DNA of 24,531 bases. It comes from a virus. Location of the stretch: the IMG/VR virus record IMGVR_UViG_3300031329_000024, positions 1 through 24,531 of that record; one strand, 5' to 3'. The first letter of the stretch is position 1, and each line of letters begins with the position of its first letter. Of this stretch, positions 2,776 to 23,919 are shown in pieces. The notes under the pieces were generated by a model. That model made no database searches. It was not told the origin of the DNA and saw nothing but the letters and a program-made list of their open reading frames with translations. The translations under genes were made by a program, and so were the position numbers.

Positions 2776-3316
2776 TGAATACCTTGGCCACTACGTCAAA
2801 GAAATTGACTGGAGTGTTTGCAGGAACTCGCTGACGCAACGAAGGGAACACCCTCATCTCTGCAGAACCGTTTTCAGCTAATGTGTCAAAACTTTCGGTT
2901 ACTGCATACAACTTATGGTGATTGCCAAACGTTATAAAACGTCCAGCAGGATAACTTCTTGCCAAAAAGTGACTAATATTAATCGAAGAATCTCCGACTT
3001 CACCTTCGTCACTAACTGTCGGTGCTCCAATATTGCCGTAAATATCATTTTTGACGAAACCTATTTCTGTCCCAAGATGCTGCGGGACTGGAATGTCAAA
3101 CGAAGTGTGTAACCCCGTTCGCATCCAATGTCCCATCAGATCTGAGAAAAGTTTACTTTTGCCTGCATCTTTGAGAGTGATAAGTAACTCCCAACGCTGA
3201 GCATCTTTGTAAATAACTTTCCTCTTCAAATTCAGCGACTCGTTCATCAAGTAAGATTCGTTGCTTGTGATACTGATGGGGGTTACATACGGATACCCCA
3301 TAAACTTATAAATCAT
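2696..3316 (-). CDS. Distal tail protein (minor tail / Dit-like position)
   Basis: 206 residues, ATG overlapping the tape measure stop by four bases (ATGA), a common coupling arrangement. The sequence is beta-rich with no membrane segment. Visible features are an N-terminal strand pair, the segment K-R-K-V-I-Y-K-D-A-Q-R-W-E-L (about 32-45), a long central region with H-K-L-Y-A-V-T-E-S, and a C-terminal block F-P-S-L-R-Q-R-V-P-A-N-T. An element of the form P-x-L-R-x-x-V is frequent in proteins found right after the tape measure. By position it should cap the distal end of the tail tube and nucleate tail assembly, as gpM/gpL of lambda or Dit do. I cannot name the exact family; the call rests mainly on gene order. 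Confidence 0.6.
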   Translation of the reverse strand: MIYKFMGYPYVTPISITSNESYLMNESLNLKRKVIYKDAQRWELLITLKDAGKSKLFSDLMGHWMRTGLHTSFDIPVPQHLGTEIGFVKNDIYGNIGAPTVSDEGEVGDSSINISHFLARSYPAGRFITFGNHHKLYAVTESFDTLAENGSAEMRVFPSLRQRVPANTPVNFFDVVAKVFNEADSSSFQYTDGIMQNATLKIVEDV

Positions 3317-6300
3317 GACATCAACCTTTTCTCTCTGAAGTTGGAATAAACAATGCTGGAAATCTCACCACCTAGTTTAATGATTTCTTGCTTAGTCTGC
3401 CTAGACAAGTCGCCTGTGAGATTGAACTCATTTGTGACATGTATTGGTTGCGCACTCTTGGCAGGTTTGGAGTCAAGTACTGGTGCAGCTGCTGGCGTAA
3501 ATGCCATTAACTTGCTTGTACCTACCATCCCACCTTTGGCATACTTCTTGGCATTTCCGAAGTTGATATTATGCAGTAACTCGCGGTTAGCTTTAGTAGC
3601 CTTTGCATTTACTACATACTCTCCGTCAGATAACCATGTGGGTATGCTGTCTGATGTGCCTGTTCCTGGACCTGTGATTAAACCGCCTGTGGCTGCTGCT
3701 AATACTGGTGCTGCCGGAGCACCCAAGCCAAATACTGAGACTGCAGTTGTTGCCAAGCCCAACAATGCACCGATAGTGTCACCGTTTCGAGCAGCTGCAA
3801 AAGAACCTGCAAGACCGCCTATTGCCAAGACTATCTGCCCAGTTCCCATGTTGAAGATGTCACCCATTCCTTTGAAGCCTTCTGCAGTGACAGCAGTGTT
3901 TTGCAACAACGGTTTGGAGAATGCTCCTCCAAGGTCTGCTGTGTCACCGCCTGCTACATTGGCTTTGAAATCTTCACTAACTAATGCAGGAACTTCTGGA
4001 CTACCATACGAGTTAATATCAAACGCAGGTAATGGTGCAGAAAATTCACTGAACTCACGTTCACCTAAGCTGGCGGATAACCCCATTGGAACGTCTAGAC
4101 CGTTTGCCTGCAAGAACCCTTTCAATGCATTGACAAATTCAAGTGTCTGTAACTGTAACGCGCTTTGCAAAGCAGCGGTCTGAGTCACAAGACCTGCATT
4201 GAGATTGGCAGTGGGTCCAGACAAGTCAGGTAGTTTTTCTTCCGCTTCTTTTCCAAAGAAAGAACCGTCTGCAAATACGCTGCTGCCAATACCCTGCAAC
4301 AACTTCATCACAGCACCTTCTTCACCTATCAAGTTGTCAGTAAAACCTTCGATGAAAGTATTTATGATACTTCGAGTAAAATTATCAATCATGGATTTCA
4401 GGAAATCTTCAAAAGAACTTTCACCTGTAAACACATCAGACAAGCCGCTGGTGAAGTTGTCTTTGACACCCGTTGCAAAAGAAATACCTGCCTCTTTTAC
4501 CTTGACGAGTAACTCAAACTCTCGTGCCAGTGCTGCTTGCAAATCATCTGTGAGTTTCATTGCAGTCAGTTTAGCAGTACCTTGCAGTTTATTAGTATCT
4601 ACAGCCAAGAAAGTCTTTTCCATGGCATCAATTGACGTATATAAAGATTGCTGAATATTCTCAGGCAAACGTCTAAAGACATCTCTATCAAATCCTTCTA
4701 CACCAACTCTTGCCAAGCCTGCATTGAGCTTTTCAAACGTTTCACCATACTTCAAAAATACTGCAAACAGTTCGGACTCATTAGCTTTTCGTTTGAACTC
4801 ATTTACAACAAGTGCGGCAGACTCTTTATCAGCGTCTCCTGCATCTTCTGATTCAAGTATTCGCAAAGCAGCAGCATACTCTTGAGCTTGTTTGAAAGCG
4901 TTCTTGCGGAACTCTTCAGGCACATTAAGTAAGTCTTGCATACTGGCATTCAATGAAGGGAACGCAGTTTGCATGCTTTGTAATACTTCTGAAAACTTGC
5001 CCACCGAACCTCCGCTGTCTATGAACTTAGTTTCTTCAATGGTCTTTTTAGCGTTTTTGACAAAGTCTTCCAGCCCTTTTTCCATCTTGGCAATTTGCCC
5101 TTTCAGCGAAACTTTATTAGCAGTATCCGCAGGTTCTTTGTTATAACTTTTGGTGAGATCTGCCAAGTCAGCGACTCTTCTCTTGTAGTCTTCAAAGAAA
5201 CCTTCTGTAGAAAAATCTCGTAAAAGACTGAGACTCAGAGGTTCCATGGCCCCATTAATTGTCTTCTTCAAGACAGTCGCAATAGAGGTTTGCCATTCTT
5301 GCAAAGTGGCAGGTTCGATACCTTCAATCGAAAATACACTGGGTGATTTAAAGATGTCGAATACTGAGCTGCCATACCTTGACAATATCTCTTTGACTGC
5401 TTCAAAACCATCAGCTGAATTCCTGAATATACTGCGGAACTCTTCAATTTTTTCTTGAGTCATGCCGACCCAACCTTCTATACCTTTTCCAGCAGCATCT
5501 AAGTTACTGCGGGTGCTGGCAATACCTGCGCGTTCATCCAAGCCTGTATTCAATTGCAAAAGAGCTTCTTCGAGACGACTTTGAAGCAAAATTAACTGCT
5601 CATTAATAAGTCTCTTATCTTCTTTACTGGTTTCAGGTTTCAGAAAATTTGCCGACAACTGGTCGATTCTTTGACGAGTATCATCGATCTGGCGTATTAT
5701 GCCTTTCATCGGGAAGAACTTTTCGCTTCCCTTTTCTTCTGCTGTAAGCTTGGAGACATCGCCTTCTTTCAACTCACTCTTGACAGGAGCTTTTGCAATG
5801 ACGGTGTTCTTGGTAATTTCTTCGCTAACTGCACCTACTATTTTAGTAATAGGCTCTTTGATAGCATTACCTAGATTGTCGCCAAAACTCTTAGCAAGGT
5901 CTTTACCTGCCCCTAAAATGTCTGCCTTGGGAAGCTCGACCTTGGTAGGAGCGCCATCTGCCCACACTCTGCCTGCTTGTGCCTGTCCAGAATTTGCCAA
6001 AATTTCATCCAGAACATACCCGTATGAGGCGTTTGTAAACATCCCTGACTCAGGCATCAGTTCAGATTGAACTCCCACAGAACGCGACTGTATCACACTT
6101 TGTGTAAGCGCTTTCCAATCTTCTGGAGAAGCTTTTGAAACAAGTTCTGAACCTGTTATGGAGTCAACCAGTTTACGGATTTTCATCCAAACTGATACAC
6201 TGGCATTGAGCGCTGCACCAGATGCATTGTTTGTACCCTTCAAAGGTTCAGGTAAGAATATCTTAAGCTTATCTCTGAGAGCATCAAACATGGCAATTAT

Positions 6301-9300
6301 TACAGACATTCCTGTCACAAACCCACGTATACTTGATGCCAGAACTTCACGGACAGTTGTTAACCAGCCTTGCCATGTACTCAAGTCAGCTGCGACTATT
6401 GCATCCCAACTGGCGACCATGCGTATAGCTGCTTCGTCACTAACTCTGTTGACAGTCTCCATGGGTGTTTCCACACCTTTCCCAAACTCATCCCAGCCGA
6501 ACTGTCTCGGTGCGTCCTTCGCATCACTTACGATATTCGGAAACAAACCTACCAACAGAGCTGCTAATACCCCCAAGCCAAGCACAACTTTCAAACCCAA
6601 GCCTGTAACAATCATTGCTCCAAGTTTAAATAAGTTTCCTGCAACAAAGCTGAACAGTTTTTCTACAGCAACACTGAGAAGACTTATGGAACTCACAGCC
6701 GCAACTATTTGCACAATTATATTATCACTGAATTTGGAGAATACTCCTGACAATGCCAGACCCGTACCTACTGCTCCACCAATAACACTACCTGCACGAC
6801 CTGCTGAGTTTGTAAACCCTGCTTGTCTTGTAGCCAGTCTCTGCGCTTGCATTGCGTCTCTTCTTTCTAGAACTCTTACTCTACGATTTGCTGCTGCAAG
6901 TCTATCGTTACTATTGGCAACTGATTTACTTGCAAGAGTTTGTGAATCCAAAGCAGACTTCAACCGAGTCATGGCTGCGATATTCTTTTTACCATACTTG
7001 TCAAAATTACCATCTACAGCATTCTTTTTAACATTTACAGCACTATCAGTGACACCGTTGATGTTCATTGCCAACATCTGTGCAGTGACTCTATTGGCCG
7101 AAGCATTTAAAGTATTTGTCAAAGCTTTCGCTTGTGTCTTAGCTTGTTTTTCCATCAAGCTGGCTTGCAGTCGGGCATCTTGTACACTACCACCAGCAGA
7201 AATTCCCGCTATGTTTTTCAGCTTTTTGGACAAATTACTGAGACCTGTTGCGCTGAGATCAATTCCTTTGGTAAATCTTCCCAAACGTTCTGTCAGTGAA
7301 GGACTGCTGAACAGCTTGAAATAAGCTAATGCGCCTATAATGCTCAGGCCAAAATCTTGTATTGCCCACAGCCCAAATTGCAACATGTCATTTACTTTAC
7401 CGAAAACTTTTCTGAAAGCAGAAGAACTGTCTTGTAAGCTGTTATTCAAACTTTCCAATCTTTCTGCAGCAGCTTTTGCAACATTTCCCAAAGTCTCAAA
7501 TGGGTTAAACTCACCCAGACCTTGCAATACATCATCAAAAGATAGCTCAGATAGTGCAGTAAATATTTTGGCAGGCAGTATTATCAATGCTGCAAAACCT
7601 GATGTCAAGGCTGTTATTCCCTTCATCAAATTGCTGCCTGGATATACTGACAAAGCCAGCCAATTGAATGCTGTTGTCAAACCTACTATTACTGCACCTA
7701 TGATAAGTAAAGGTTTCAAGAAGATTGCACTTGCGCCCACTACAATTGCCAGTAATGAACGACTAATTAGTGAAAATGCAACTCCGCCTACAGTTGCCAA
7801 AGCGCTGGGTAACGCTACAAGTAAACCTGTTTTTAACACAAAGCTGAAAGTAGTTAATGCCTTACCTGCAGTCTCTGTTGCTCCGAGAATATTATCGACT
7901 GCTTTGCCAAAACCTTCTGTCTGAGTCAAGTAAAGACCTGCGCCAATTCCCAAGATACTACCTATTCCACTGGCAGCTCCGAAGAAATTGTTGCGACGTT
8001 CTTCTCTGTTGGTATTCAAACGAAAGTCTTCTGACTCTGCCAAGCTCAAACGTCTGCTGAGTTTCACAGAAGATTTTTGCAGGTTGACTAAGTCACCGTT
8101 ACTCTTTGCGATGCGTTGGTTGTAGCTTATCAGTTGATCAAACTGTTTGGAATTTCCTGCCAAAGTACCTTGACGAGTTGCTTTCTCCAATGCTGCAGGT
8201 GTGATGTTGATACCTGCTTTGCGATTAGTTGAGACCAGTGAATTGGTCAAAGACTCACGATTTGTCAATAACTTCTGACGAGTTGCTTCAAGATCTTTTA
8301 TACTGCGATTGTTACCGCTCTCTAAGTCACGGATGTTCAATAAAGCACTGTCATTGCCTTTTCTTTGAATCCCTTCCGAAAAACCTTTGATCAAATCAAA
8401 AGGAGCTTTTGCAACACCTCCCAACAATCTTGTAAAGCTTTCTCTTATCGGTTGAAAGGCAAGACCTATTCTGGCTGCCAATAGTATACCCAGTTCAAGA
8501 GGCATTGTTGTAAAGAAACCTGCAAACAAAGACAGCACTGTGGAAAATGCTCTACCCAATACTGTAGTCAAGCTTTGTGCCACACCGTCATCAATGAATG
8601 CTGCTGCAATGGTTAATGCCAAGATTTTCTTGAACAGTACCAAAGCTCCTCCGCCAACTGTTTTAAAGCTCAATCCCAGCGTAATTGCTGCACCAAATGC
8701 TGCCAATACTGCTTTAGACAACCCATCTTGAAATTCTTTGGGAATTGCCATAAACTGCTCATACAAGAAAGGGCGATACTCATTGAAACGCTGTTGCCCT
8801 ACGCCTCCAAAAGAACCTTCTTGCATTCCCGCATAATCTAATTGTTTACCATTTATGCTGTCTACACTTGTCAGAGTTTTGTTGATATCAGACACCCCAA
8901 AGAACTGAGTCCATCTACGACCTTGTTCTGAAGTGAGAGCATCGCCTAATGCTTCAACAAGTCCTTCTTTAAAACCTTCTGCAATACCTAGGTAAAGGTC
9001 TTTGAAACCCTGCACGATATTCTTCAAAGAGAACGTCTGAAAGAGTGTCACAAAGTAACCGAAGACTATGCCGAGACCGCTAGTAAATGCACCTACAAAA
9101 GCGCTACCACCTGATGATGAAAATAGGCTGGAAATTGACTTACCTACTGTCTCACCAAAGCTGCCTATTTCAGACAACGCTGTTCCAATTTGCTGAAAAG
9201 TTTCTTGGAACCCATCACCTACTTTTTTCAAAGCAGTGTCAAAACCATCAGTGTTGAAGTTTGTATTAAAAAGACTGTCGAACAAACTTTTTACAGCAGT

Positions 9301-12300
9301 GATAGTGTCGCCACTGGCTTCCATCAGACCATCTAATGCAAATCCGCTGCTCATGCTTGGACTAAACAAGTCTCCAAAACTACTGGCAAGTTCACTAATT
9401 TGCACTTGCAGACGTGTGATTGTGGTGACATCAAACAAAGGATCCAGTGAAAGGTCGAAAGAACCGAACAGTCCAAATATTCCTTTGAAAGACTTAACTA
9501 CCGCATCAAATGTACCTGACATTGCACTTACGAACTTTTCTGATTTGGAATCATTAAAAAGTTTGTCAAAGAAATCAGGCAACTCTTCTGCAGCTTCTTT
9601 ACCAGCACTGACTATATTATCTAAACCGTCAAGAACATCTGCTGTCTTGATATTCAATTCTAGCGGAGTCCCAAGAATGTTACTCGCTTTCTGCTTAAAT
9701 TCTGCAATCTTTTCGTCTGTAAATCCAAATGCTTCTGAACCAGTTGAGAACGTAGCTTTTGCCAAATCTTTCAAAAGACCTAACTGTACATTTTTAACTT
9801 GACGCAAAGCCCTGTCAGAGTTGTCTACGAACCCATCGACAATGATACCGAAGTCTCTTACAAGCTGCAAACCTGTACCTGTAGTTACGATTGTGGCTTC
9901 CACAGTATTGTTTGCAAATTCTGACTCCGCAGAGTTTCTTACTTGAGCAATCTTGGCTTTCAAGTCTGATGCAGACAACATTTTGTCAAGAAGAGTATCC
10001 CCTTGAGTGTTGCTGTAAATGTCTTTGATAATATCCAGTGAACTTATCTTGACACTGTCTAATGTACCCAATGCCTTTTGACGTTCAGCAATCAACTTTG
10101 AATTGGTTGAAGTCCACAACTTGACGAACTCTCCAATATCTTTGCGATTCACATCTATGTTGAAAGAACTGAATATGTTGGCGCTGTCACCACTGTAATT
10201 TCCCAACAAAGCCATGTTGGATACAATACCGTCCAAACGTCTGGCGGCTTCTTCTCCAAAGAAGTTTTCAACACTCTGAACTTCGGTTACGCCACGTTTG
10301 TATTGCATAATTGCAGCACCAAACTTCAAACTGTTACCTACAAGACTGTCTGCCAATCTATTGGCAATGTCTGTAGATGTCAATTTCGTCAGGTCACTGG
10401 TCATGCCCAGCACTTCATTGGTAAGTGAGAAAATATCTTTCAGCCGAGAAGCACCGTCTGCAGCACCGTCAAAACTTGCATTACCAGCAACTTTCTCCAA
10501 CAGTTCACTGTAAACGCGGACTTCATCAATCGTGCCTTGCAAGCTTCCAAAACTGAGATTATTATCTGCCGCAATTAACTTGAGAGCATCAATGACTGAG
10601 CCTACACTGGCTGCTGCTGACTTAGAACCGTTTTCAATATCTTTGAATAGTGAAATGACCACTTCATTTGTTAACAAGTTTTGTGAACCTGCCAAGTCAG
10701 CAATTTTGCCTTTGAGAATTGCAACAGACTCTGTCAGAGTGGAGCCGAAATTCTGAACAAGGTTGCCGCCGAAAGTTTCCGCACTCTTCTCAATCTGATC
10801 AAAGCTGGATACCAGTTGAGCCGAATTTCGTTGAGCACTGTTTCGCACAGTTGCGTCTAAAGCTCTACTGCCACTCTCTACACCATAAGATGCAGTTTGG
10901 AAGCTGGCGACTTGAAACCTTGAGTAGTCTGTTGTTGCTGCTGACAGTAAGACTTGTATTGCTCTTGTGTCTGCATTTTTATCAAGAAGTAAGTTTTCCA
11001 ACAGTTTAAAGACTTTAGAATCGCCTTCAAACATTTGACGCGCACGTTCCAACAGTTCTTCACTGCTGGCATTTTCAAAGAACGGTGCAAGCTGACCTAC
11101 GCCACTTTGCAATCCTTCTGAGATAGTCCCGACATAGCTTTCTATCACTTCTGCAAAGTCTGAACTTTTGGCACGAATATCTTCGATACCTATCTTGTCT
11201 AAAAAGCTCTCAAATTGCTTTCTGACAAATGCTGCACCTTCTTCAACATTGGCAGTATCGCCGTTGAGAAGCTCTGCGTATGTGCTTGTTATGACATTGC
11301 GCAATTGTGCAGGGAATCTTTCCATTCCCAGTTCATCACCTATTCCACTGAAAAGGCCCAGTGCTGCAGGGTTACGGAAAGTTTTGAATAACTGATGACT
11401 GGAAAGTTTAGTCATCAATTCACTGAGAGTCTGAGCATCAGATATTGAGCTTATGAAAAAGCTTACATCTTTGCTACCCCCACCGAGTGAGTTAAGTTGA
11501 GCAAGAGTGTCAATAATACTTTCTGGACGAAAAGCTTTGAACAGCGCTTTACTGGTATCACCTACTCCTCCGATTGCTTTGCTCAAATTTGTCAAAGCAG
11601 CATCCATGTTATTGCGTTCTACATCATAGACGAATCTGTTGAAATTGTCACGCACTGATGTCAGCCCATCGACAACACCATTGAAGACTCCAAATTCCAC
11701 ACGTATGCCTGCGAAACTCAGTAAAGTATTTCGGATGTCTACAAACAGAAGTTTCATCTTAAATACGTTTAAGTCTATTTTGTAAGCAATCATGTCAGTA
11801 GACGCGGCAATACTGTCTGCCCAGTCTTTTATAATGCCTGGCAACCCACCTCTGTCTCCTGTGAAATTTTCGGAAATCTCTGAGAAGAGTATATTTATTG
11901 ATGTGCCGAGATTTTTGAAAGCTCGTGAGAATGTAAAATTGATCTTCTCAAAACTTTCGTTTATCTTGTCACTTTGCTTGAGCATGCCATTGACTACACG
12001 TGAGTATGTCAACCGTCCCAGCTCAGCTTCTTTGCGTAAAGTTTCAAAAGGAATGCCCATACCTTCGGCAAGTTGTAATGCCAAGTATTGCGAGCCTTCA
12101 AGTACTGCTCGAAGTTCTTCACCTGCTAAACGGTTTGAACCCAAGCCTTGACCTAATTGAATAATTACACTATTTGCTTCTTGTGCGCTTGCACCTGATA
12201 TTGCCAGTGACTTCGAAACATTCTGAGTGAATTTGGCAGTTTGACTTTGAGAAACGTTGAAACGCTTACCTGCCAGTGCTACTTTGGAATAAATGTTTGC

Positions 12301-12711
12301 AACACCATCCAACGGATTACCCGTTGCGAGTGCTATCTGACGAACATTTTTGAGTGATGTTTCAAAATCTTTGTTTGTGTCTGCTACTACTCGCAGACGG
12401 TTGTTAAGGTTGCTCACACTATCTGAGAGCTTTGTAAAGCCTACTATCGCTGCTGTAATTGCAATCGAAGACGCAATTGACGATATTAAGCCTTTGTAAT
12501 TAGTTGTTAGATCCTTTACTGACGCACTCGCTTTGGTAGCTTCTTTAGAGACTTTCTTTAACTCTCCTGAAGACTTTGCGCCAGATAGACGATCCATACT
12601 TTGCGAAGTTTTTGCAGAAGAAGATGCCACGGTATCTAGACTTTTGTTCAGTCTGGAAAGATCGCGTAACGCCTGTGAAGAATCTGATTGAGTTCTTATT
12701 TGAATAGCCAT
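3313..12711 (-). CDS. Tail tape measure protein, 3132 residues
   Basis: The largest gene in the window. The start is set by AGGA six bases upstream of the ATG. The N-terminus (about 1-75) is Ser/Lys-rich and coiled-coil-like. Residues about 80-290 match the conserved tape-measure N-terminal region, with S-G-A-S-A-Q-E-A-N-S-V-I-I-Q-L-G-Q-G and L-A-G-E-E-L-R-A-V-L-E-G. Several long hydrophobic stretches follow (about 1335-1420, 1560-1720, 1975-2060), expected for segments that enter the inner membrane during ejection. The C-terminal ~450 residues have the usual tape-measure end: G-G-L-I-T-G-P-G-T-G-T-S-D-S-I-P, then W-L-S-D-G-E-Y-V-V-N-A and K-G-G-M-V-G. The protein sets tail length and is ejected ahead of the DNA. 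At the usual ~0.15 nm per residue it would predict a tail near 450-470 nm, much longer than lambda's. No lysozyme or peptidase motif was noticed, but the middle was read only by eye. Confidence 0.95.
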   Translation of the reverse strand: MAIQIRTQSDSSQALRDLSRLNKSLDTVASSSAKTSQSMDRLSGAKSSGELKKVSKEATKASASVKDLTTNYKGLISSIASSIAITAAIVGFTKLSDSVSNLNNRLRVVADTNKDFETSLKNVRQIALATGNPLDGVANIYSKVALAGKRFNVSQSQTAKFTQNVSKSLAISGASAQEANSVIIQLGQGLGSNRLAGEELRAVLEGSQYLALQLAEGMGIPFETLRKEAELGRLTYSRVVNGMLKQSDKINESFEKINFTFSRAFKNLGTSINILFSEISENFTGDRGGLPGIIKDWADSIAASTDMIAYKIDLNVFKMKLLFVDIRNTLLSFAGIRVEFGVFNGVVDGLTSVRDNFNRFVYDVERNNMDAALTNLSKAIGGVGDTSKALFKAFRPESIIDTLAQLNSLGGGSKDVSFFISSISDAQTLSELMTKLSSHQLFKTFRNPAALGLFSGIGDELGMERFPAQLRNVITSTYAELLNGDTANVEEGAAFVRKQFESFLDKIGIEDIRAKSSDFAEVIESYVGTISEGLQSGVGQLAPFFENASSEELLERARQMFEGDSKVFKLLENLLLDKNADTRAIQVLLSAATTDYSRFQVASFQTASYGVESGSRALDATVRNSAQRNSAQLVSSFDQIEKSAETFGGNLVQNFGSTLTESVAILKGKIADLAGSQNLLTNEVVISLFKDIENGSKSAAASVGSVIDALKLIAADNNLSFGSLQGTIDEVRVYSELLEKVAGNASFDGAADGASRLKDIFSLTNEVLGMTSDLTKLTSTDIANRLADSLVGNSLKFGAAIMQYKRGVTEVQSVENFFGEEAARRLDGIVSNMALLGNYSGDSANIFSSFNIDVNRKDIGEFVKLWTSTNSKLIAERQKALGTLDSVKISSLDIIKDIYSNTQGDTLLDKMLSASDLKAKIAQVRNSAESEFANNTVEATIVTTGTGLQLVRDFGIIVDGFVDNSDRALRQVKNVQLGLLKDLAKATFSTGSEAFGFTDEKIAEFKQKASNILGTPLELNIKTADVLDGLDNIVSAGKEAAEELPDFFDKLFNDSKSEKFVSAMSGTFDAVVKSFKGIFGLFGSFDLSLDPLFDVTTITRLQVQISELASSFGDLFSPSMSSGFALDGLMEASGDTITAVKSLFDSLFNTNFNTDGFDTALKKVGDGFQETFQQIGTALSEIGSFGETVGKSISSLFSSSGGSAFVGAFTSGLGIVFGYFVTLFQTFSLKNIVQGFKDLYLGIAEGFKEGLVEALGDALTSEQGRRWTQFFGVSDINKTLTSVDSINGKQLDYAGMQEGSFGGVGQQRFNEYRPFLYEQFMAIPKEFQDGLSKAVLAAFGAAITLGLSFKTVGGGALVLFKKILALTIAAAFIDDGVAQSLTTVLGRAFSTVLSLFAGFFTTMPLELGILLAARIGLAFQPIRESFTRLLGGVAKAPFDLIKGFSEGIQRKGNDSALLNIRDLESGNNRSIKDLEATRQKLLTNRESLTNSLVSTNRKAGINITPAALEKATRQGTLAGNSKQFDQLISYNQRIAKSNGDLVNLQKSSVKLSRRLSLAESEDFRLNTNREERRNNFFGAASGIGSILGIGAGLYLTQTEGFGKAVDNILGATETAGKALTTFSFVLKTGLLVALPSALATVGGVAFSLISRSLLAIVVGASAIFLKPLLIIGAVIVGLTTAFNWLALSVYPGSNLMKGITALTSGFAALIILPAKIFTALSELSFDDVLQGLGEFNPFETLGNVAKAAAERLESLNNSLQDSSSAFRKVFGKVNDMLQFGLWAIQDFGLSIIGALAYFKLFSSPSLTERLGRFTKGIDLSATGLSNLSKKLKNIAGISAGGSVQDARLQASLMEKQAKTQAKALTNTLNASANRVTAQMLAMNINGVTDSAVNVKKNAVDGNFDKYGKKNIAAMTRLKSALDSQTLASKSVANSNDRLAAANRRVRVLERRDAMQAQRLATRQAGFTNSAGRAGSVIGGAVGTGLALSGVFSKFSDNIIVQIVAAVSSISLLSVAVEKLFSFVAGNLFKLGAMIVTGLGLKVVLGLGVLAALLVGLFPNIVSDAKDAPRQFGWDEFGKGVETPMETVNRVSDEAAIRMVASWDAIVAADLSTWQGWLTTVREVLASSIRGFVTGMSVIIAMFDALRDKLKIFLPEPLKGTNNASGAALNASVSVWMKIRKLVDSITGSELVSKASPEDWKALTQSVIQSRSVGVQSELMPESGMFTNASYGYVLDEILANSGQAQAGRVWADGAPTKVELPKADILGAGKDLAKSFGDNLGNAIKEPITKIVGAVSEEITKNTVIAKAPVKSELKEGDVSKLTAEEKGSEKFFPMKGIIRQIDDTRQRIDQLSANFLKPETSKEDKRLINEQLILLQSRLEEALLQLNTGLDERAGIASTRSNLDAAGKGIEGWVGMTQEKIEEFRSIFRNSADGFEAVKEILSRYGSSVFDIFKSPSVFSIEGIEPATLQEWQTSIATVLKKTINGAMEPLSLSLLRDFSTEGFFEDYKRRVADLADLTKSYNKEPADTANKVSLKGQIAKMEKGLEDFVKNAKKTIEETKFIDSGGSVGKFSEVLQSMQTAFPSLNASMQDLLNVPEEFRKNAFKQAQEYAAALRILESEDAGDADKESAALVVNEFKRKANESELFAVFLKYGETFEKLNAGLARVGVEGFDRDVFRRLPENIQQSLYTSIDAMEKTFLAVDTNKLQGTAKLTAMKLTDDLQAALAREFELLVKVKEAGISFATGVKDNFTSGLSDVFTGESSFEDFLKSMIDNFTRSIINTFIEGFTDNLIGEEGAVMKLLQGIGSSVFADGSFFGKEAEEKLPDLSGPTANLNAGLVTQTAALQSALQLQTLEFVNALKGFLQANGLDVPMGLSASLGEREFSEFSAPLPAFDINSYGSPEVPALVSEDFKANVAGGDTADLGGAFSKPLLQNTAVTAEGFKGMGDIFNMGTGQIVLAIGGLAGSFAAARNGDTIGALLGLATTAVSVFGLGAPAAPVLAAATGGLITGPGTGTSDSIPTWLSDGEYVVNAKATKANRELLHNINFGNAKKYAKGGMVGTSKLMAFTPAAAPVLDSKPAKSAQPIHVTNEFNLTGDLSRQTKQEIIKLGGEISSIVYSNFREKRLMS

Positions 12712-15798: not shown

Positions 15799-17016
15799 TT
15801 AGTTGTGGAATACTGGTAAAATACCTAGTGATAGTGCAGAAGAAGAGGTGCGCTTCCATACACCACGGTTCGTGTGAACACCACTTGAAGCAGTGTTGGA
15901 AGAAATCGCAGCGTGAATATTGTCATCAGACTTGCGTACAGAACCACAAAGAGCTGCTTGGTTGGTTGAAGTGTAATCTGCAACGAAAGCATTCTCAGAA
16001 CCAGCCCAAGAGTAACCACGAGGATGATAAATACCGCCCCAACGAGACCAAATTTGAGTTGTACCACCACCTTGATAAGCAGCGCCTTTACGAGTAATTT
16101 CGGTAGGCAGAGGTACGTCAACTGCAACATTCTCAATAGAACCAGGCAATACGATAAACGAAGTCTTGCTGCCTACTATGTCTACACCGCCACCAGTATT
16201 GAAAGCAACTAGTTCAGCAGTAGTAAAACCTTGGTTTGCACGAGTCTGTAATAGACGGAACTTACCTTGGAAGAGAGTGTTAAAAGTGATGTTACCATCT
16301 ACTACACGATCTTGGTCAACTAAGTTTGCAGAACGGAAAGAAGCATAAACTTCTGGCGAACAAATCAAGTAAGCGTACTCTGGCTCGTAATCTTTGTAAG
16401 CCATACCGAAAGCATTTAATAACGCTTCAGCACGAGCTGCGCCTTGTAAAGCAGCAGAAGCAGCAGAAACAATGTTACCACCTAAATCTACGTAGAAACC
16501 GTAAGCCATGTCAGCAGGGTCGTTTGCAAAGGTCTGTCCACCCAAGCCACCGTCATCAGTGCCGTAGAACAACTCAGTGGCAGCTACACCTTTAAGCGTT
16601 GCCAAAATTGAATTGTGCTCATCTTGTGCACGAGTTTCACCAAAGTCACGACCGATCTTTGCAAGACCGTCTACTTGAGTTACAACTTGCTTCATGTTGA
16701 TTTTCTCAGCACCGTGTGTACGTACAGTTTTAATGTACTTATACATGCTTGTGCCGTAATCAGACAAAGCACCATCTGTAGAGTCTGTTAAGCTGGCAAT
16801 GTTGATTGCTGCGTTAATCGGAGTGTTCCAACGTGCTTGACCGATAAATGTTTCGGTATCGGCTACGATATCTGGATTGGAACCTACGATACCTGTTGAG
16901 TTTAACTTCTTTGCAGAAGTGTAAGCTTCATCGCTGTAACCTGTTATTGCAGATTGTAAAACAACGTTACTTTGGGCGTCATCGCCTATGATTGAACCGT
17001 CAAAATTTTGAGACAT
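15799..17016 (-). CDS. Major capsid protein
   Basis: 405 residues, directly after the scaffold gene and before the connector genes. AGGAA lies eight bases upstream of the ATG. The N-terminal ~40 residues are flexible and Ser/Asp-rich. Residues about 85-115 read A-L-S-D-Y-G-T-S-M-Y-K-Y-I-K-T-V and may form the long spine-like helix region; I-G-R-D-F-G-E-T-R-A-Q-D-E-H-N (about 125-140) and F-Y-V-D-L-G-G follow. There is no sign of a protease or of a delta domain in front of it, so a separate scaffold probably takes that job. The fold is expected to be HK97-like but cannot be shown from sequence alone; position and size carry the call. Confidence 0.82.
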   Translation of the reverse strand: MSQNFDGSIIGDDAQSNVVLQSAITGYSDEAYTSAKKLNSTGIVGSNPDIVADTETFIGQARWNTPINAAINIASLTDSTDGALSDYGTSMYKYIKTVRTHGAEKINMKQVVTQVDGLAKIGRDFGETRAQDEHNSILATLKGVAATELFYGTDDGGLGGQTFANDPADMAYGFYVDLGGNIVSAASAALQGAARAEALLNAFGMAYKDYEPEYAYLICSPEVYASFRSANLVDQDRVVDGNITFNTLFQGKFRLLQTRANQGFTTAELVAFNTGGGVDIVGSKTSFIVLPGSIENVAVDVPLPTEITRKGAAYQGGGTTQIWSRWGGIYHPRGYSWAGSENAFVADYTSTNQAALCGSVRKSDDNIHAAISSNTASSGVHTNRGVWKRTSSSALSLGILPVFHN

Positions 17017-17027
17017 TTGGATATTTC

Positions 17028-17693
17028 CTATCTGTTAAGTTTGCCTGTTGCCGCCATTTCCAGCACTTCTTTCTGCGTCATTTGAAACAGAGATTTGCCA
17101 GAACTTGGAGGCGGTGATGTGGGTGATGTAGGTAAATGACCTCCACCTGAGTTTGCCTTAGGTTTCAACAAGAACTCATTGTCTTCGCTGGACATAAAGT
17201 CGCCAATGATTTTCTCAACCTTATCACCGTTCTTTCCTTGCCAAGAACCTTGTTCGGTCTGGACGAGTTGAGCAGTAATTTCCGAGAATGCCATCTTTGA
17301 TGCTTTATCTGAACGAAAATCGTAGCCATTGAGAACACTTTTAATTTCCAAATCTCTTGTCAATTCAATGTTTCTCTTTGCAAGAACTTCACTTTTAGCA
17401 CGTTCTTGACTTAGTTCCAGTTCCAAAGCTTCTGCAACTTTACCTTCTGCCTTCAACTTTTCAGTCTGTTGCTCAGATAGTTTTTGCTTCAATTCTTCGG
17501 CTTCTTTTACTACAGTATCACGTTGGCTGTAAGCGTTGTCTACTTTGGCTTTAAGATCTTTCAACTGTTCGGCTACCGCTGCTGCTACTGCATCTTTGAA
17601 CTCTTTGGTATCATTACCAAGGTTAGGAGCCTCTGGCGCTGGCGCTGGCGGTACATCGGTGTTGTCGTCTTGATTGTTATTTACATCAGTCAT
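17028..17693 (-). CDS. Capsid scaffolding protein
   Basis: 221 residues from the ATG at 17693. This start was chosen over an in-frame upstream ATG (17762) because GGAG lies ten bases before it and the upstream one sits inside the preceding gene. The N-terminus is acidic and disordered (M-T-D-V-N-N-N-Q-D-D-N-T-D then P-P-A-P-A-P-E-A-P). A long charged coiled coil follows (about residues 35-115: K-A-K-V-D-N-A-Y, E-E-L-K-Q-K-L-S-E-Q, A-L-E-L-E-L-S-Q-E). A Gly/Pro/Ser linker (G-G-G-H-L-P-T-S-P-T-S-P-P-P-S-S) leads to a short helical end, K-S-L-F-Q-M-T-Q-K-E-V-L-E-M. This layout and its position just before the capsid gene are those of scaffolding proteins, whose C-terminal helix binds coat subunits. 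Confidence 0.8.
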   Translation of the reverse strand: MTDVNNNQDDNTDVPPAPAPEAPNLGNDTKEFKDAVAAAVAEQLKDLKAKVDNAYSQRDTVVKEAEELKQKLSEQQTEKLKAEGKVAEALELELSQERAKSEVLAKRNIELTRDLEIKSVLNGYDFRSDKASKMAFSEITAQLVQTEQGSWQGKNGDKVEKIIGDFMSSEDNEFLLKPKANSGGGHLPTSPTSPPPSSGKSLFQMTQKEVLEMAATGKLNR

Positions 17694-17707: not shown

Positions 17708-17737
17708 GGACACAGTCCACAGTTGAGGTACAACCTC
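17708..17737 (-). other. Two tandem small hairpins with TGT triloops
   Basis: In the 47-base gap between the RNA polymerase-fusion gene and the scaffold gene, the minus strand reads GAGGT-TGT-ACCTC (17725-17737) and then GGAC-TGT-GTCC (17708-17718). Both loops are TGT with a central G. The second hairpin abuts the scaffold ribosome binding site, so it could affect translation. N4 virion RNA polymerase promoters are also short hairpins with three-base loops and a central purine, so a promoter role is conceivable. Such short stems also arise by chance, and no T-run follows, so it is not a terminator. Confidence 0.3.
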
Positions 17738-17740
17738 TTG

Positions 17741-20700
17741 TTAAATTCCAATACCATACCAACCATAATCTTCTGTAAAGTCGGTACTGATTGATTCTAA
17801 GATATCTTCTTCGGTGAGGATATCTGCTAAGGTAACAACTTTGCCGTCAATCACAGATCTACCTGGCACAGGTATTAACCCAATATCGATTGCCTCATTT
17901 AAGTATTGATTGTACACACTTAAAGGCAAACCTCTAGCCTTCATTTCATTGAGAGTCATAAGAATGACGTTATTCTCAAGAAAGTCTGCATAGATTTTTC
18001 TCAAAGCTTTCATTGCGGTAGGCAACTCAGCAATGTTTGTCATGAAAGCATCATGTATAGTACTTGTTGGCACTTTGTTCTTACTGCCCCATAAATGGAA
18101 GCGGCGAACCATGACGCTATCGTTTGAATGGTTGAAGTTGACACCATACGCAGTACGGGCATCTATTACATCAGCAATGTCGTTTATCTTTCCTGAACGG
18201 TTGAAAAGAACGTCTAAGAAAGAAGCTTCTGTCTTTTGACTTACATTGATAATGTTAGTGATACGCTTGCCATCTTTGTCAAAGTAGTTGAGCTTTTCTT
18301 CAAACGTTTGTCTGAATACTTGTTCAATTACTTTCCCATCCATATTAACAGAAGGTACTGATGTCCAACTCTTTGGCAACTTGTTTGTTTCCAAAAATTC
18401 AAACTCTTTCAGTACAGGAACTTTGCCTATTTTCTTTCCGAAATCTAAGCTGAAACCTGCGAAACCTCTGCCAGTCTGTCTGTATTGCGGTGATTTGACA
18501 CCATAAAGTAAGTCCATCAGAGGATGATCTTTCTCCAAGTATCTTTCCAGAATCTCTTTTGTAACAGGTTTAGTAGGGTCTAGCCCAAGAAAGTTTGCAA
18601 CCTTCTCTGGTAACATTTGCCCTCTGTTGGCGTTTTTACCCAAAAAATTCATTTTTACTACAGATTTCCAATCAATTGTGGCAGCGCTGGGTTTGCTGTT
18701 TTTCAAAAAGTCTTCCGCAAGTCTTCCAAAGTAACGGGTAAATGACTTTAGTATCGGAGCTTGTGCAGCCGAATATTCAGACATTATTTTACCTATTTCC
18801 AGAAAGTCTTTTGGCGTCATTAATTGACTGTTGTCATACCCTGCTGTGATCTTATTGATCAGCCCTTTTGCTTCATCATCTATGAACCACAAGTGTTTGA
18901 TAATACTGTCTTCAAATTTTCGTCCATTGTCCATCACATCTTTGACTTGCTTGCGCAGTGTCATCAGGTCTTGATAAGTCTCTGGTGAAAATTGTTTATA
19001 CTTTGCTGCTCTGGCAGAAATCTGGTCAAGAACTTTGCTGCGATCCGTAGACGTAACAGTCAAAATATCTTTCTTGCCGAGTATCTTTGCCAAATTCTTT
19101 TCTATTTGCATTAAACCAGTCTTCTCGCCAGCACCGTATAACGATACCATGACCTTGTATTTAGCAGCTTTACGCAGGTCTTTCTCTGTGAGATTGAGTT
19201 CTGCATTCAACTTTTTGAAACGAGGGTCATTGAAAGTGTCTCTGGCAACAATGTCGTAAAGACGGTTTTTCTGCTCTGTCGGGACTACATTACTGTACTG
19301 AGCTAGTTGCTTGTTCTTGGTAGTCAAAGCAATTATCTGAGCACCTGACGAAGACGCATCCACTTCCATGGCAAACGTTGTTTTGTAGTTATCAAGCTTA
19401 CGCAAATCACTGAAATCCCCGCCTAAGTAGTTGTCCAAGCGAGCATACTCAATTGCAAATCTGACAAATTTGTTCAACTCTTCACCTTCAATTTGTGCAA
19501 CTAAAGGGTGTTGTAGAAATTTGCGAATGTCATTTGGCTTTCTTCGCAGTGCCATGTGACCTATCTCGATAAGTGCTTTGCGGTGCATCTCAGTGATTTT
19601 CTGTCTACCTGTGAAACTGAGGGCGTTGTACCTGCCTTCAAGTCTGTCAGATATCCCACCTAAGAAACCACCTACCTGATCGTTCAAAAGCCTGTAGCCG
19701 TTTTGTCCGAGAGTGCCCACCTCTGCTGTCGAAAGGAAGCCCCTATACGACTCCCCAGATTGCGGAGAAATCAGCCCACGCTCGTAGACTCGTCCTCTGT
19801 GGTCTACAAACGGCATGTTTCCAAACTGTGAGTTGGACTTCCGTAACCAGCGCATTGCAGTGAAACGTTCATACGTATCATCTCTTCCAGACATATACTG
19901 ACGATACTCATTCAACTCGTCAAAATACTTAGAACGGCCTTTGTCGTCTTTAAACATCAACAATGCTTCTGAGAAGTCAAATGTGTCAGGGTCAATCGTA
20001 TAACGTGTTTTCCCAGACCAGTTCAAAGCATCTACAAAGTCTTGGTCAATCAATTCCTCTGGAAAATCACTGTAAGAACTTGTTGACGTAATTGGTATGC
20101 CTGTGTTCTTGTAACCTCTTACACCGTCATCTATCCAATACTCTTTCGAGTTTCTGCGAATGACTAACTTATTGTGCTTCATAGGTACACGCATTCCAAC
20201 ATCAACTTGACGAGAAAGTCTTTCATAAACTTTTATGCGAGGGTCAGTAACTATGATGTTCTGTGAAAATGTGTCATAAAATTGACCAAAGAATTGCCCA
20301 CTTATTGAAGAACGCATTCTTCTTTTCTGAACACCGAAAGTTTCCAATTTGAAAAAATCGTTGTTGGCATTGAGTAAATTCATGCCCAGACTGCGCCATT
20401 TATCTTTAGTACCGTTTAGATTGGCAAGCGTGTACAAATCTCTACCCAATGCTACTGCAAACTCATCTATGTCAGGGGATGCCGCCAATGAAAGACGATG
20501 TGCAAACTTTACATAAAATTTATTTAAAGCGTTAGGGTCAGTGATTCTTCTGCGCAAAGGAATAGGAATACTCAAGTCAAAAGCTTGCCTCAACTCTTTT
20601 GCCAATTTAGGCGCAACCGTCCTTTCCCAATTCAATTTTGCTTTGATATTTGAAATGAGATTGTCGTGCAATTCATCCAGTGAAGATATACCTAAAACAG

Positions 20701-22363
20701 GGTCAATGTAACCTTCCTGTTTGAGCTTTTTCAAAACACTGGAATTACTCCGCAAAGCTGTTTCCAAGTTATCTGACACATTTAATATGTCAAACTTTAT
20801 CTGAGCATTCACTACTGCCTTGAAGTTGTTCCATGGTTCAGGATTCTTGCGATATCGCGTAAACAATATCCGTAAATTATCTGCCACAACTGCACGCTGG
20901 TTCACAGACATGGATGCTTCCAAACGATTGACGATATCACCTATTACAGCTTTGTCTGTGGGATTTAAGTCAGGAGAATCATCAAGAAGTCTCAGACTTG
21001 TTTCCAGCACCTTAGGCTCAGGTTGATACAAACGACTATCTACATAACGTCTGAGCACAGGACTGTAAACCAATTCTGACTCATTTGGTGGACGATTTAA
21101 TACAGAACGTTTCTTTGCCTTCTTTGCTTGCATTGTGATTCCGCGATACCCCATCATGGACAGATTACCGTCAAGTTCATTTGCTTGCAAAATATAGTAT
21201 TGCACAATTGATTTCTTCATAGCTTCGGTAATATCTTCCGGAACACTGATTGCCAAAGATAAGTCGTCTAGCTTTTGCTTTGCTGTTGCGAATTTTGCTG
21301 TTTGACCTGGTGGCGTATATTCGTCAGTCAACCTTCTTAAACTTTGCAGAGTGAGAGGGTTGCCAGCGATATCGCCAAACTTGGACAACGGCAGTTTATT
21401 TCTTTGAAAAAGATTTACTTTACCATCACTGCCGAGATGTTTCAACTGCGTTTCGTAAGACTGTCTCAGCAACCATTCACTGTAATTTTCTTTCAAAGGT
21501 GTTTTGCCGTCATAGAAAGCAATTTGTTGAGGTGAAAGTTTTGCCAAGTTTCTTTGACGCACTTGATTGAGATTGTCAAGATTTTTGATGTCTTTCCACG
21601 ATTTGAAAACAGGCGTGGTTGTACTTCGACAGAAATAGTGCGCAGGCGGTAACATGTCAACGTTGTCAACATCAAATACTTGCCCATCTCTGTGTGAACA
21701 GACTGGGGTGGTGCTCGCATCGAGAACTGCAACATACTGCCACCCTGTCAACGCGTTTTCGTTTGCCTTGTAGATTGCCTGATCCGCCTGCGAATACACG
21801 CTGGTGATTGCAGTAGTGACCAAGGTTCGTGACTGGTTGCGGGTAATTCTGTGCACGTTTCCTTTGCGAACCGACAACGCCAGTTCTTCTGGTGATAAGC
21901 CTTTTGCCAACCCCTGACGTATTGTCTTTTCAATGCGCTTGCGTTCCCCCAATGAAATATTTGCCCAACCCTGTAACAGAGTCTTATCTGCATGCAGTGG
22001 ACGTTTCAATACAATTTCTTCTGCAATACGTCTGGGAGGACGCTTGGTACGCCAAATCTTGCCAATGGTGTTGTCCATGTTTTGAAAACCGAATGACAGT
22101 TGGTCACCAATCAGGTCAATAAGTCCAAGCTTACTTGTGCGGAAAGCTTCGTCTTTTGCCTTGTTAATTGATGCTCGTAACTCTCTCTTCAGTTTTCTTT
22201 TGCCTGCGACAGTCAAGCTGCTGTCACGTATTATATTATCTGCACGCTTTTCTTGACTTCTGAAAATATCGATTATCTTCAAGTGTAGGGCTTTTTCGTA
22301 ACGGCGTACATTTGCCGATCTATTTACCCGCTCGTCATAGGCTGCAGTTGAGGCATTGTTCAT
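17741..22363 (-). CDS. MuF head-morphogenesis domain fused to a T7/N4-like single-subunit RNA polymerase (candidate virion RNA polymerase)
   Basis: 1540 residues, GGAG seven bases upstream. Residues 1-~255 are a Mu gpF-like domain: basic helices, then L-D-A-S-T-T-P-V-C (214-222), D-G-Q-V-F and P-P-A-H-Y-F-C-R-S (239-247), with Cys222 and Cys245. Residues ~255-650 are unassigned and helical. From ~840 the protein follows T7 RNA polymerase: V-D-H-R-G-R-V-Y (853-860), co-linear with T7 Asp421-Tyr427 and with P-Q at the same spacing; motif A V-D-A-S-S-S-G, Asp1002 (T7 Asp537); motif B Arg1064, Lys1068, Tyr1076-Gly1077, at T7 spacing (Arg627, Lys631, Tyr639); N-F-N-H-S-N-D with His1412 (T7 His784); motif C I-H-D-A-F with Asp1438 (T7 Asp812). 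All catalytic residues are kept. Motifs B and C are 362 residues apart, about twice T7. MuF proteins bind the portal inside the head, so the polymerase is probably packaged and could be ejected with the DNA. Confidence 0.88.
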   Translation of the reverse strand: MNNASTAAYDERVNRSANVRRYEKALHLKIIDIFRSQEKRADNIIRDSSLTVAGKRKLKRELRASINKAKDEAFRTSKLGLIDLIGDQLSFGFQNMDNTIGKIWRTKRPPRRIAEEIVLKRPLHADKTLLQGWANISLGERKRIEKTIRQGLAKGLSPEELALSVRKGNVHRITRNQSRTLVTTAITSVYSQADQAIYKANENALTGWQYVAVLDASTTPVCSHRDGQVFDVDNVDMLPPAHYFCRSTTTPVFKSWKDIKNLDNLNQVRQRNLAKLSPQQIAFYDGKTPLKENYSEWLLRQSYETQLKHLGSDGKVNLFQRNKLPLSKFGDIAGNPLTLQSLRRLTDEYTPPGQTAKFATAKQKLDDLSLAISVPEDITEAMKKSIVQYYILQANELDGNLSMMGYRGITMQAKKAKKRSVLNRPPNESELVYSPVLRRYVDSRLYQPEPKVLETSLRLLDDSPDLNPTDKAVIGDIVNRLEASMSVNQRAVVADNLRILFTRYRKNPEPWNNFKAVVNAQIKFDILNVSDNLETALRSNSSVLKKLKQEGYIDPVLGISSLDELHDNLISNIKAKLNWERTVAPKLAKELRQAFDLSIPIPLRRRITDPNALNKFYVKFAHRLSLAASPDIDEFAVALGRDLYTLANLNGTKDKWRSLGMNLLNANNDFFKLETFGVQKRRMRSSISGQFFGQFYDTFSQNIIVTDPRIKVYERLSRQVDVGMRVPMKHNKLVIRRNSKEYWIDDGVRGYKNTGIPITSTSSYSDFPEELIDQDFVDALNWSGKTRYTIDPDTFDFSEALLMFKDDKGRSKYFDELNEYRQYMSGRDDTYERFTAMRWLRKSNSQFGNMPFVDHRGRVYERGLISPQSGESYRGFLSTAEVGTLGQNGYRLLNDQVGGFLGGISDRLEGRYNALSFTGRQKITEMHRKALIEIGHMALRRKPNDIRKFLQHPLVAQIEGEELNKFVRFAIEYARLDNYLGGDFSDLRKLDNYKTTFAMEVDASSSGAQIIALTTKNKQLAQYSNVVPTEQKNRLYDIVARDTFNDPRFKKLNAELNLTEKDLRKAAKYKVMVSLYGAGEKTGLMQIEKNLAKILGKKDILTVTSTDRSKVLDQISARAAKYKQFSPETYQDLMTLRKQVKDVMDNGRKFEDSIIKHLWFIDDEAKGLINKITAGYDNSQLMTPKDFLEIGKIMSEYSAAQAPILKSFTRYFGRLAEDFLKNSKPSAATIDWKSVVKMNFLGKNANRGQMLPEKVANFLGLDPTKPVTKEILERYLEKDHPLMDLLYGVKSPQYRQTGRGFAGFSLDFGKKIGKVPVLKEFEFLETNKLPKSWTSVPSVNMDGKVIEQVFRQTFEEKLNYFDKDGKRITNIINVSQKTEASFLDVLFNRSGKINDIADVIDARTAYGVNFNHSNDSVMVRRFHLWGSKNKVPTSTIHDAFMTNIAELPTAMKALRKIYADFLENNVILMTLNEMKARGLPLSVYNQYLNEAIDIGLIPVPGRSVIDGKVVTLADILTEEDILESISTDFTEDYGWYGIGI

Positions 22364-22377
22364 TTGAAACTCCAGTA

Positions 22378-23919
22378 TTAATCGAAGACTTCATCTTTGC
22401 CGTCATCTTTCTCGACAAAATCATCTTGCTTCATTTCCACCTTTGCGCTTTCATCATTATAATCAGAATCCAGCACATCGTTTTGTTTCAATAACATTAA
22501 CCATGCTGATCTGGGTATCAGTCCCCCTTCATACCATTCTGTTGCCAATCTCAACCAATCTGCACCTAACGGAACAGGGTTAAAATCGTCACTTAGGGAA
22601 AAGTCAATATCTGCGTCTGAAAGTTGCAGGCCGCTGTCCCAGTAAACCATAAAGCGAACTATCTTTTCCATTGTGGACGATATCTTGGCATTCAATGAAC
22701 CGAGTTTAGCTGTCTGTGCTGCGTTACGTATTTCCAGTGCAACGCCTGACTGTGCTGTTTCAGGAGATAACATGCGGATGCCCAGCTTGGCAAGCTCTTC
22801 TACCCCTGCTGCAATTGCCCTGTCCATATCTTTCAAAGCATCAGTCGGGGTGTCTAAGACAGACGCGCTGCCACCTTCTGGCAACAGTATCCACCCACCT
22901 AAGCCTTGGCTTACAATTGCTTCAAATTGAGCGTCAGTGATATCTGCAGAGATTGTCGGCGTATATGTTGCCGCACCGTAAAGAAGATGGTTGCGACGAC
23001 TCACTTTATTGTACAGCGAAATTTCTTTGTCTACAATTGTGGCAAGAATAGGCTGAACAATATCAATACTGCCGTTCAAAGGGAATATTGGCAAATACTC
23101 TAGCTTTTTACCGTTGACAAGTATTTCTTCAATCGTTTCATGAAGTGTATAGATTTCTTTGTTGAAATTGTGTGACTTTACGCCATTGACAACGGCAACA
23201 CTGCGAGCCTCAACTTCTTTCCTGAACTTGCGAATACGATAATGGCCTTCATGCAACTCATACACAGAGACTACTTCAATGATATCTGGATGAAATTCGT
23301 TGTCGGAAATATCTTCTTCAAAAGTTTTGACAATCACTTGACTCAATACCAGTGAACCATCTGCAGCTTTTGTGGTCTTCCAGTTGATGACGTCTTTTGC
23401 ACGCCACAATACGGGATACGGGTGGATCTTCTTGCGCTCTTCTCTGCTGAGATTTTCATAATCAGGCACTACAGGATGTTCTATGAAAACCCATGCACGA
23501 CTTGTGACGATCTCTTCTTCTAAAGCTGTCGAGAGAAATGCAGTTAAAGATGAACCGTCTTGGCCAAAACCATTGAGGAGCCAATCTTTCATGTCTTCTG
23601 TTACTGCTGTGTTTGTAAATGACAGTGAAGGTTTCTTTCTGAGCAGCCCTCCCACTATCATTTTTGAAAATTCTGTTGTGATGCCTGGAAATTCTGCTTC
23701 CGCTTTATAAAATCTGTATTGCTCCGGACTCATTGAAGGTGAGAACGGTATAAGCAAGTTTGTGAAAGACATCACATCTAAGACTGCATCATAAGTCTTT
23801 ACTGCACTTTCACCTGTACATGCTGCTTGACATTTCTTCCAAATGGGATACATTGACGCATATTCAGCATTCGGATCTGCGACTGTCTTAGTTTTATCTA
23901 CTGCATTATGCGCCAACAT
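22378..23919 (-). CDS. Portal protein (DUF4055-like)
   Basis: 513 residues. A strong AAGGAGAGG lies just before the ATG. It follows the DUF4055 portal pattern: an N-terminal helical part with Y-P-I-W-K-K-C-Q-A-A, F-S-K-M-I-V-G-G-L-L-R-K-K-P (about 84-97), a central W-V-F-I-E-H-P and P-V-L-W-R-A-K-D-V-I-N-W (about 164-175), I-S-L-Y-N-K-V-S-R-R-N-H-L-L (the wing/stem region), W-I-L-L-P-E-G-G, and a C-terminal helical part with G-V-A-L-E-I-R-N-A-A-Q-T-A-K-L-G-S-L. The last 30 residues are acidic. The twelve-subunit ring forms the DNA channel at one head vertex and docks the terminase motor. The following MuF gene is its usual partner. Confidence 0.85.
   Translation of the reverse strand: MLAHNAVDKTKTVADPNAEYASMYPIWKKCQAACTGESAVKTYDAVLDVMSFTNLLIPFSPSMSPEQYRFYKAEAEFPGITTEFSKMIVGGLLRKKPSLSFTNTAVTEDMKDWLLNGFGQDGSSLTAFLSTALEEEIVTSRAWVFIEHPVVPDYENLSREERKKIHPYPVLWRAKDVINWKTTKAADGSLVLSQVIVKTFEEDISDNEFHPDIIEVVSVYELHEGHYRIRKFRKEVEARSVAVVNGVKSHNFNKEIYTLHETIEEILVNGKKLEYLPIFPLNGSIDIVQPILATIVDKEISLYNKVSRRNHLLYGAATYTPTISADITDAQFEAIVSQGLGGWILLPEGGSASVLDTPTDALKDMDRAIAAGVEELAKLGIRMLSPETAQSGVALEIRNAAQTAKLGSLNAKISSTMEKIVRFMVYWDSGLQLSDADIDFSLSDDFNPVPLGADWLRLATEWYEGGLIPRSAWLMLLKQNDVLDSDYNDESAKVEMKQDDFVEKDDGKDEVFD

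Follow-up and report, generated by a model that had tools for sequence, protein, structure and literature searches.

A single uninterrupted gene in a metagenome-derived virus fragment of 24.5 kb joins a MuF head-morphogenesis protein to a T7-type single-subunit RNA polymerase (RNAP). We refer to the whole stretch analysed, 24,531 nucleotides, as the window. In our judgement, this gene is likely to specify a virion RNA polymerase that is packaged by way of its MuF head-protein part and injected into the host, where it would transcribe early genes, that of a second RNAP among them. To our knowledge, virion RNAPs occur in few phage groups, namely the N4-like podoviruses, jumbo phages (with multisubunit enzymes), crAss-like phages and P23-45, where the polymerase is fused to the tape measure protein. 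The kind is already known, and the literature, as far as we found, suggests that a virion RNA polymerase fused to MuF has not previously been described. The author of an earlier, sequence-only reading of the window likewise knew of no example; the founding description of the Naomviridae lay outside the literature covered, so an earlier notice is possible.

A MuF protein and a polymerase in one reading frame

ORF analysis of the window gives a single intact, ATG-started frame of 1540 codons on the minus strand (Table 1). According to PHROG matches, the genes are ordered portal, MuF-RNAP, scaffold, major head protein, which bears out the sequence-only reading in placing the frame in the canonical MuF slot. 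Its assumption of a siphovirus context also holds, since the genes past the major head protein include a head-tail adaptor, tail terminator, tail tube, tape measure and distal tail protein. No contractile sheath was recognised among the window genes scanned, and by its gene content the phage is a long-tailed one. The fusion occupies the same portal-to-scaffold position in the Ruegeria phages DSS3_VP1 and DSS3_PM1. In these two phages a tRNA-Asn gene lies between the portal and MuF-RNAP genes (L006 21063-21138; L007 9590-9665).

Table 1. Features of the fusion gene, its neighbours in the window and introns in relatives
Feature	Record	Position	Strand	Basis or remark
MuF-RNA polymerase fusion gene, 1540 aa	window	17741-22363	-	intact ORF; Pfam, PHROG and NCBIfam matches
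MuF head-morphogenesis part, residues 2-346	window	21326-22360	-	phrog_241 (PHROG) E 9e-56, PF04233, TIGR01641
PF04233 core, residues 143-249	window	21617-21937	-	Pfam match
Conserved helical middle region, residues 350-640	window	20444-21316	-	no known family among Pfam and PHROG profiles
T7-type single-subunit RNA polymerase, residues 641-1540	window	17744-20443	-	PF00940, phrog_414, AlphaFold2 model and Foldseek
D-x-R-G-R-V-Y element, residues 854-860	window	19784-19804	-	D854, R856, R858, Y860 invariant, 62/62
Motif A, residues 1000-1011, catalytic Asp1002	window	19331-19366	-	D1002 invariant, 62/62
Motif B, residues 1062-1079	window	19127-19180	-	K1068 and Y1076, 62/62; R1064, 57/62
N-F-N-H-S-N-D element, residues 1409-1415	window	18119-18139	-	H1412 invariant, 62/62
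Motif C, His1437-Asp1438	window	18050-18055	-	invariant, 62/62
Portal protein gene, upstream neighbour of the fusion	window	22378-23919	-	phrog_145 E 8e-61
Scaffold gene, downstream neighbour of the fusion	window	17028-17693	-	phrog_206 E 4e-6
Major head protein gene	window	15799-17016	-	phrog_247 E 2.5e-13
Tape measure protein gene, 3132 aa	window	3313-12711	-	phrog_3519 E 2e-53
Group I intron, motif B of MuF-RNAP gene, EBPR siphovirus 1	JF412302	28901-29761		HNH ORF; unannotated in record
Group I intron, motif B of MuF-RNAP gene	L085; L086	9664-10540 (L085)		E 7e-7; HNH ORFs, arrangement as in EBPR siphovirus 1
Group I intron within second-RNAP gene, relative G009	L115	7737-7970	-	E 3e-18

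The N-terminal MuF domain proposed from the letters alone is recognised by PF04233 (53 bits, cut-off 29.6, E 5e-14), by the SPP1 gp7 family TIGR01641 (67 bits against 39.7, E 1.3e-18) and by the head morphogenesis family phrog_241. A model of residues 1-660 reached a pLDDT of 79 and a pTM of 0.46, i.e. low-confidence domain packing, and had no fold match in the PDB; the MuF assignment, and with it the docking discussed below, thus rests on sequence profiles.

PF00940 recognises two stretches of the fusion protein (47 bits, cut-off 22, E 2e-12) and also matches all five A2 members; further matches are to the RNA polymerase family phrog_414 (E 7e-27) and, in a PDB profile search, to T7 RNAP (E 6e-5). 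All of the catalytic motifs are located at the residues predicted beforehand, in T7 order; their conservation was scored over 62 full-length homologues. An AlphaFold2 model of residues 628-1540, built on an alignment with 59 IMG/VR homologues, has a pLDDT of 85 and a pTM of 0.82. Foldseek against the PDB, the kind of structural comparison that the sequence-only reading had proposed, ranked T7 RNAP (E 1.8e-17) and mitochondrial RNAPs first, with TM-scores of about 0.5 against T7 RNAP and 12-15% identity. In the model, the fold class is clear and the predicted enzyme is divergent from T7 RNAP. The best viral match was A0A7S5FRK7 (1463 aa, E 5e-52), which has the same length as the DSS3 homologues; below it, the annotated virion RNAPs of N4-like phages appeared from about 2e-13.

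In hhalign profile comparisons the MuF-fused RNAP scored best with the T7 group (E 7.6e-16) and less well with the relatives' own second RNAP (6e-5); no similarity to N4 vRNAP was detectable (0.14), and this comparison lends no support to N4 vRNAP ancestry. Of the earlier description as a T7/N4-like polymerase, the T7 half stands, on PF00940, fold and profile, and the N4 lineage, by profile, does not.

Relatives, second polymerases and introns

In IMG/VR, at least 574 stretches encode relatives, which fall into two clades and, among the matches listed and where the contig is long enough, mostly consist of one ORF of about 1460-1580 aa. A search of 50,697 phage records brought up full-length relatives in only three phages: EBPR siphovirus 1 (49% identity to the window protein), DSS3_VP1 and DSS3_PM1 (Naomviridae; 31%), with MuF, RNAP and gene slot arranged as in the window. 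The architecture, of which the sequence-only reading knew no described example, is real but not confined to one phage. Existing annotation leaves the polymerase unmentioned: the DSS3 proteins (QGH74596 in DSS3_VP1 and QGH74736 in DSS3_PM1) are each a 'Minor head protein-like protein', and gp47 and gp49 of EBPR siphovirus 1 are labelled 'head protein'. The main text of the EBPR phage paper mentions neither polymerase nor intron. Record JF412302 is named EBPR siphovirus 1 (54,466 bp, partial), and a table of that paper gives JF412302 as ESV6 and JF412297 as ESV1 (54,511 bp, complete).

The same single-ORF fusion recurs in more than 100 loci and in two complete roseophage genomes, which together with profile and fold matches far above chance already refutes an assembly chimera or chance similarity, a negligible prospect even for a metagenome-derived record such as the window. 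The fusion is kept in both clades and was never lost among the loci examined. A search of 84,980 species genomes yielded one match, a viral contig binned in a MAG; this sets aside a prophage origin and suggests that the carriers of the fusion are lytic phages. Compared with L003, a relative at 84%, the window protein is most conserved in its RNAP part (pN 0.082, as opposed to 0.182 in the MuF part); pN is given alone, without a dN/dS ratio, since the pair is saturated at synonymous sites.

A second, separate and canonical T7-like RNAP is encoded by 12 of 13 relatives larger than 49 kb. Its carriers are all ten IMG/VR relatives tested (49.8-79 kb), DSS3_VP1 and DSS3_PM1 (PF00940, E 5e-34 to 1e-82). 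None was found in EBPR siphovirus 1, whose 54-kb record is marked partial, or in three shorter records (40-47 kb), where the MuF-fused enzyme is the only one. A free second RNAP in the larger, near-complete relatives fits a two-stage scheme with a virion and a non-virion polymerase.

EBPR siphovirus 1 differs from the window in that a group I intron with an HNH ORF (RF00028, E 6e-8, under the curated gathering score) splits its MuF-RNAP gene at NMV^TFYGAG, inside motif B. Group I introns favour conserved codons of essential genes, and their presence in motif B of three members points to a conserved functional site in the fused RNAP.

Candidate promoters and the timing of expression

How might the two polymerases divide the genome between them? 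DNA motifs were sought by word counting. The coding strand of DSS3_VP1 (MN602266) has 14 copies of the word TAGGGTGCGTTAAA with 0-3 mismatches (example sites at 19203-19340), in many cases with GAGGGGG after it, and the opposite strand has two, with 2-3 mismatches. The word is similar to the SP6 promoter, ATTTAGGTGACACTATAGAAG. Three tandem copies precede the portal-MuF-RNAP operon, as against a single degraded copy in the block that runs up to the second RNAP gene. The motif is probably the promoter of the second RNAP. Read in this way, it would place the fusion among the late genes, probably with late synthesis, and the early block, along with the start of transcription of the second RNAP gene, would fall to a different polymerase. 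Conceivably, host sigma-70 promoters drive the early block in place of the fused RNAP; sigma-70 matches in the DSS3_VP1 early block are at chance level.

In the other clade, exact matches to the palindromic CCCGTTAANTTAACCC number 29 over nine genomes (including L010, L012, L018, L020, L024, L042, L047 and L062), every one of them on the coding strand, and 100 scrambled versions gave zero occurrences. In 48 of 74 loci its core, with no more than 2 mismatches, directly follows the stop codon of the MuF-RNAP gene, and in 7 of 7 genomes the block with the second RNAP opens with a copy that has a C-run downstream. This directional palindrome is likely a phage promoter; for the window itself it was set aside, its core being absent there at up to 2 mismatches. 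A palindromic GTTAANTTAAC element is present in relatives.

With regard to N4-type hairpin promoters, no distributed hairpins with 3-nt loops were seen. In the window, tandem hairpins with a UGU or CGU three-base loop lie right before the scaffold start codon (17708-17718 and 17725-17737, minus strand), with no Rfam match. Such hairpins occur in 93 of 97 non-identical scaffold leaders of both clades (82 with at least two; 75 different stem sequences), as against 14 of 887 control ORF leaders. Being concentrated at the scaffold leader, the UGU-loop hairpins were set aside as N4-like vRNAP promoters and are instead a candidate translational operator of the scaffold and capsid genes.

A proposed role for the fused polymerase in the infection cycle

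Intact active sites in all homologues, the invariant fusion to MuF, a second RNAP in near-complete genomes and a place in the late portal operon are together what one would expect of a virion polymerase, and all are found in the relatives. As the sequence-only reading proposed, we infer that the polymerase is packaged, injected and used for host-independent early transcription. We envision that the fusion protein is made late with the portal operon and that its MuF part docks a few copies of the polymerase at the portal inside the procapsid. Together with the DNA, the polymerase would then pass into the host, probably as an unfolded chain drawn through the tail in the way proposed for N4 vRNAP, and would refold there to transcribe the early genes, including that of the second, free T7-like RNAP, which in turn would transcribe the middle and late genes. 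Early transcription would then be independent of host RNAP. Two points weigh against this picture: no promoter could be assigned to the fused RNAP, and a protein of about 175 kDa would have to traverse a long, narrow tail tube.

A wider idea is that a widespread group of lytic long-tailed phages evolved MuF, independently of N4 and P23-45, as a portal-anchored tag for a T7-type RNAP, and that the polymerase may stay on the portal or tail path and pull the genome in by transcription. We hold this tentatively and lean against it.

Alternatively, the fused polymerase may work late and only in the producing cell, on late genes or at the procapsid portal during assembly; it might be packaged passively and lie idle after injection, with host RNAP starting early transcription as in T7. 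The place of the gene in the late operon would suit such a role, and so would the T7-like character of the second RNAP, because the T7 polymerase gene is itself transcribed by host RNAP. We nevertheless find it unlikely, since a canonical T7-like RNAP would already serve the late genes in 12 of the 13 larger relatives, so that a second late enzyme on a low-copy head protein seems wasteful, and since no examined locus has shed the MuF fusion. Less probable still, and very unlikely, is that the retained polymerase fold serves some purpose other than transcription, such as replication priming or DNA pulling at the portal. The divergence from T7 RNAP in identity and TM-score might be taken in its favour, and single-subunit RNAPs can also make primers; against it, 62 of 62 homologues retain every catalytic and substrate-binding motif that transcribing enzymes have, and at least some relatives have a primase/helicase of their own, as DSS3_VP1 does.

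The virion polymerase that we favour has precedents in N4 vRNAP (PMC12633501) and in the tape-measure-fused vRNAP of P23-45 (PMC10770324). Both share the logic of the proposed mechanism, and the parts here differ. N4 vRNAP (gp50, Schitoviridae) is likewise a single-subunit RNAP of similar fold class within a larger late protein, with a second phage RNAP in the genome; however, it has about 3500 aa, lacks MuF and belongs to podoviruses, whereas the window protein has 1540 aa with MuF at its N-terminus and RNAP through to the C-terminus, and the RNAP domains of N4 mini-vRNAP have no profile similarity to it (the hhalign value above). In P23-45, likewise long-tailed and with a non-virion RNAP (gp64) besides, the virion RNAP gp96 is joined to a structural protein, but gp96 is a two-barrel RNAP on the tape measure, whereas in the window a T7-type fold is carried by MuF and the tape measure is a separate gene; MuF is unmentioned in the P23-45 paper (PMC10770324). 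T7 RNAP shares all catalytic motifs in order and is the best match by PDB fold and by profile; unlike it, the window RNAP is divergent, has insertions and is fused to a head protein, whereas T7 RNAP is free and made early by host transcription. Finally, MuF carries effectors, and a survey of polyvalent proteins names other enzymes fused to MuF, in the same gene position and with a C-terminal enzyme thought to be delivered to the host; here, in contrast, the cargo is a complete RNA polymerase. That survey found N4-like virion RNAPs confined to N4-like phages or prophages (PMC5512222). If our reading is true, polymerase packaging arose again through a simple head-protein fusion, in hundreds of environmental long-tailed phage contigs, and MuF can deliver whole transcription machinery as well as toxins and modifying enzymes. 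With DSS3_VP1 and DSS3_PM1, two cultured phages of Ruegeria, the idea can be put to the test now.

Why might a phage bring its own polymerase? In the DNA of the DSS3 phages dU replaces dT (PMC12697855), which is one possible reason in their case, as dU-DNA could make promoters harder for the host enzyme to recognise; only the DSS3 phages are known to have dU-DNA. A modified-base genome was set aside as a general reason, an adenylosuccinate-synthetase-like gene being found in just 1 of 18 records. That gene (L095:12901-14064, corresponding to G007 72901-74064) matches PF00709 (E 3e-46) and phrog_1211 (E 3e-51) and, weakly, PurZ, and 2-aminoadenine DNA is a possible feature of the relative that carries it.
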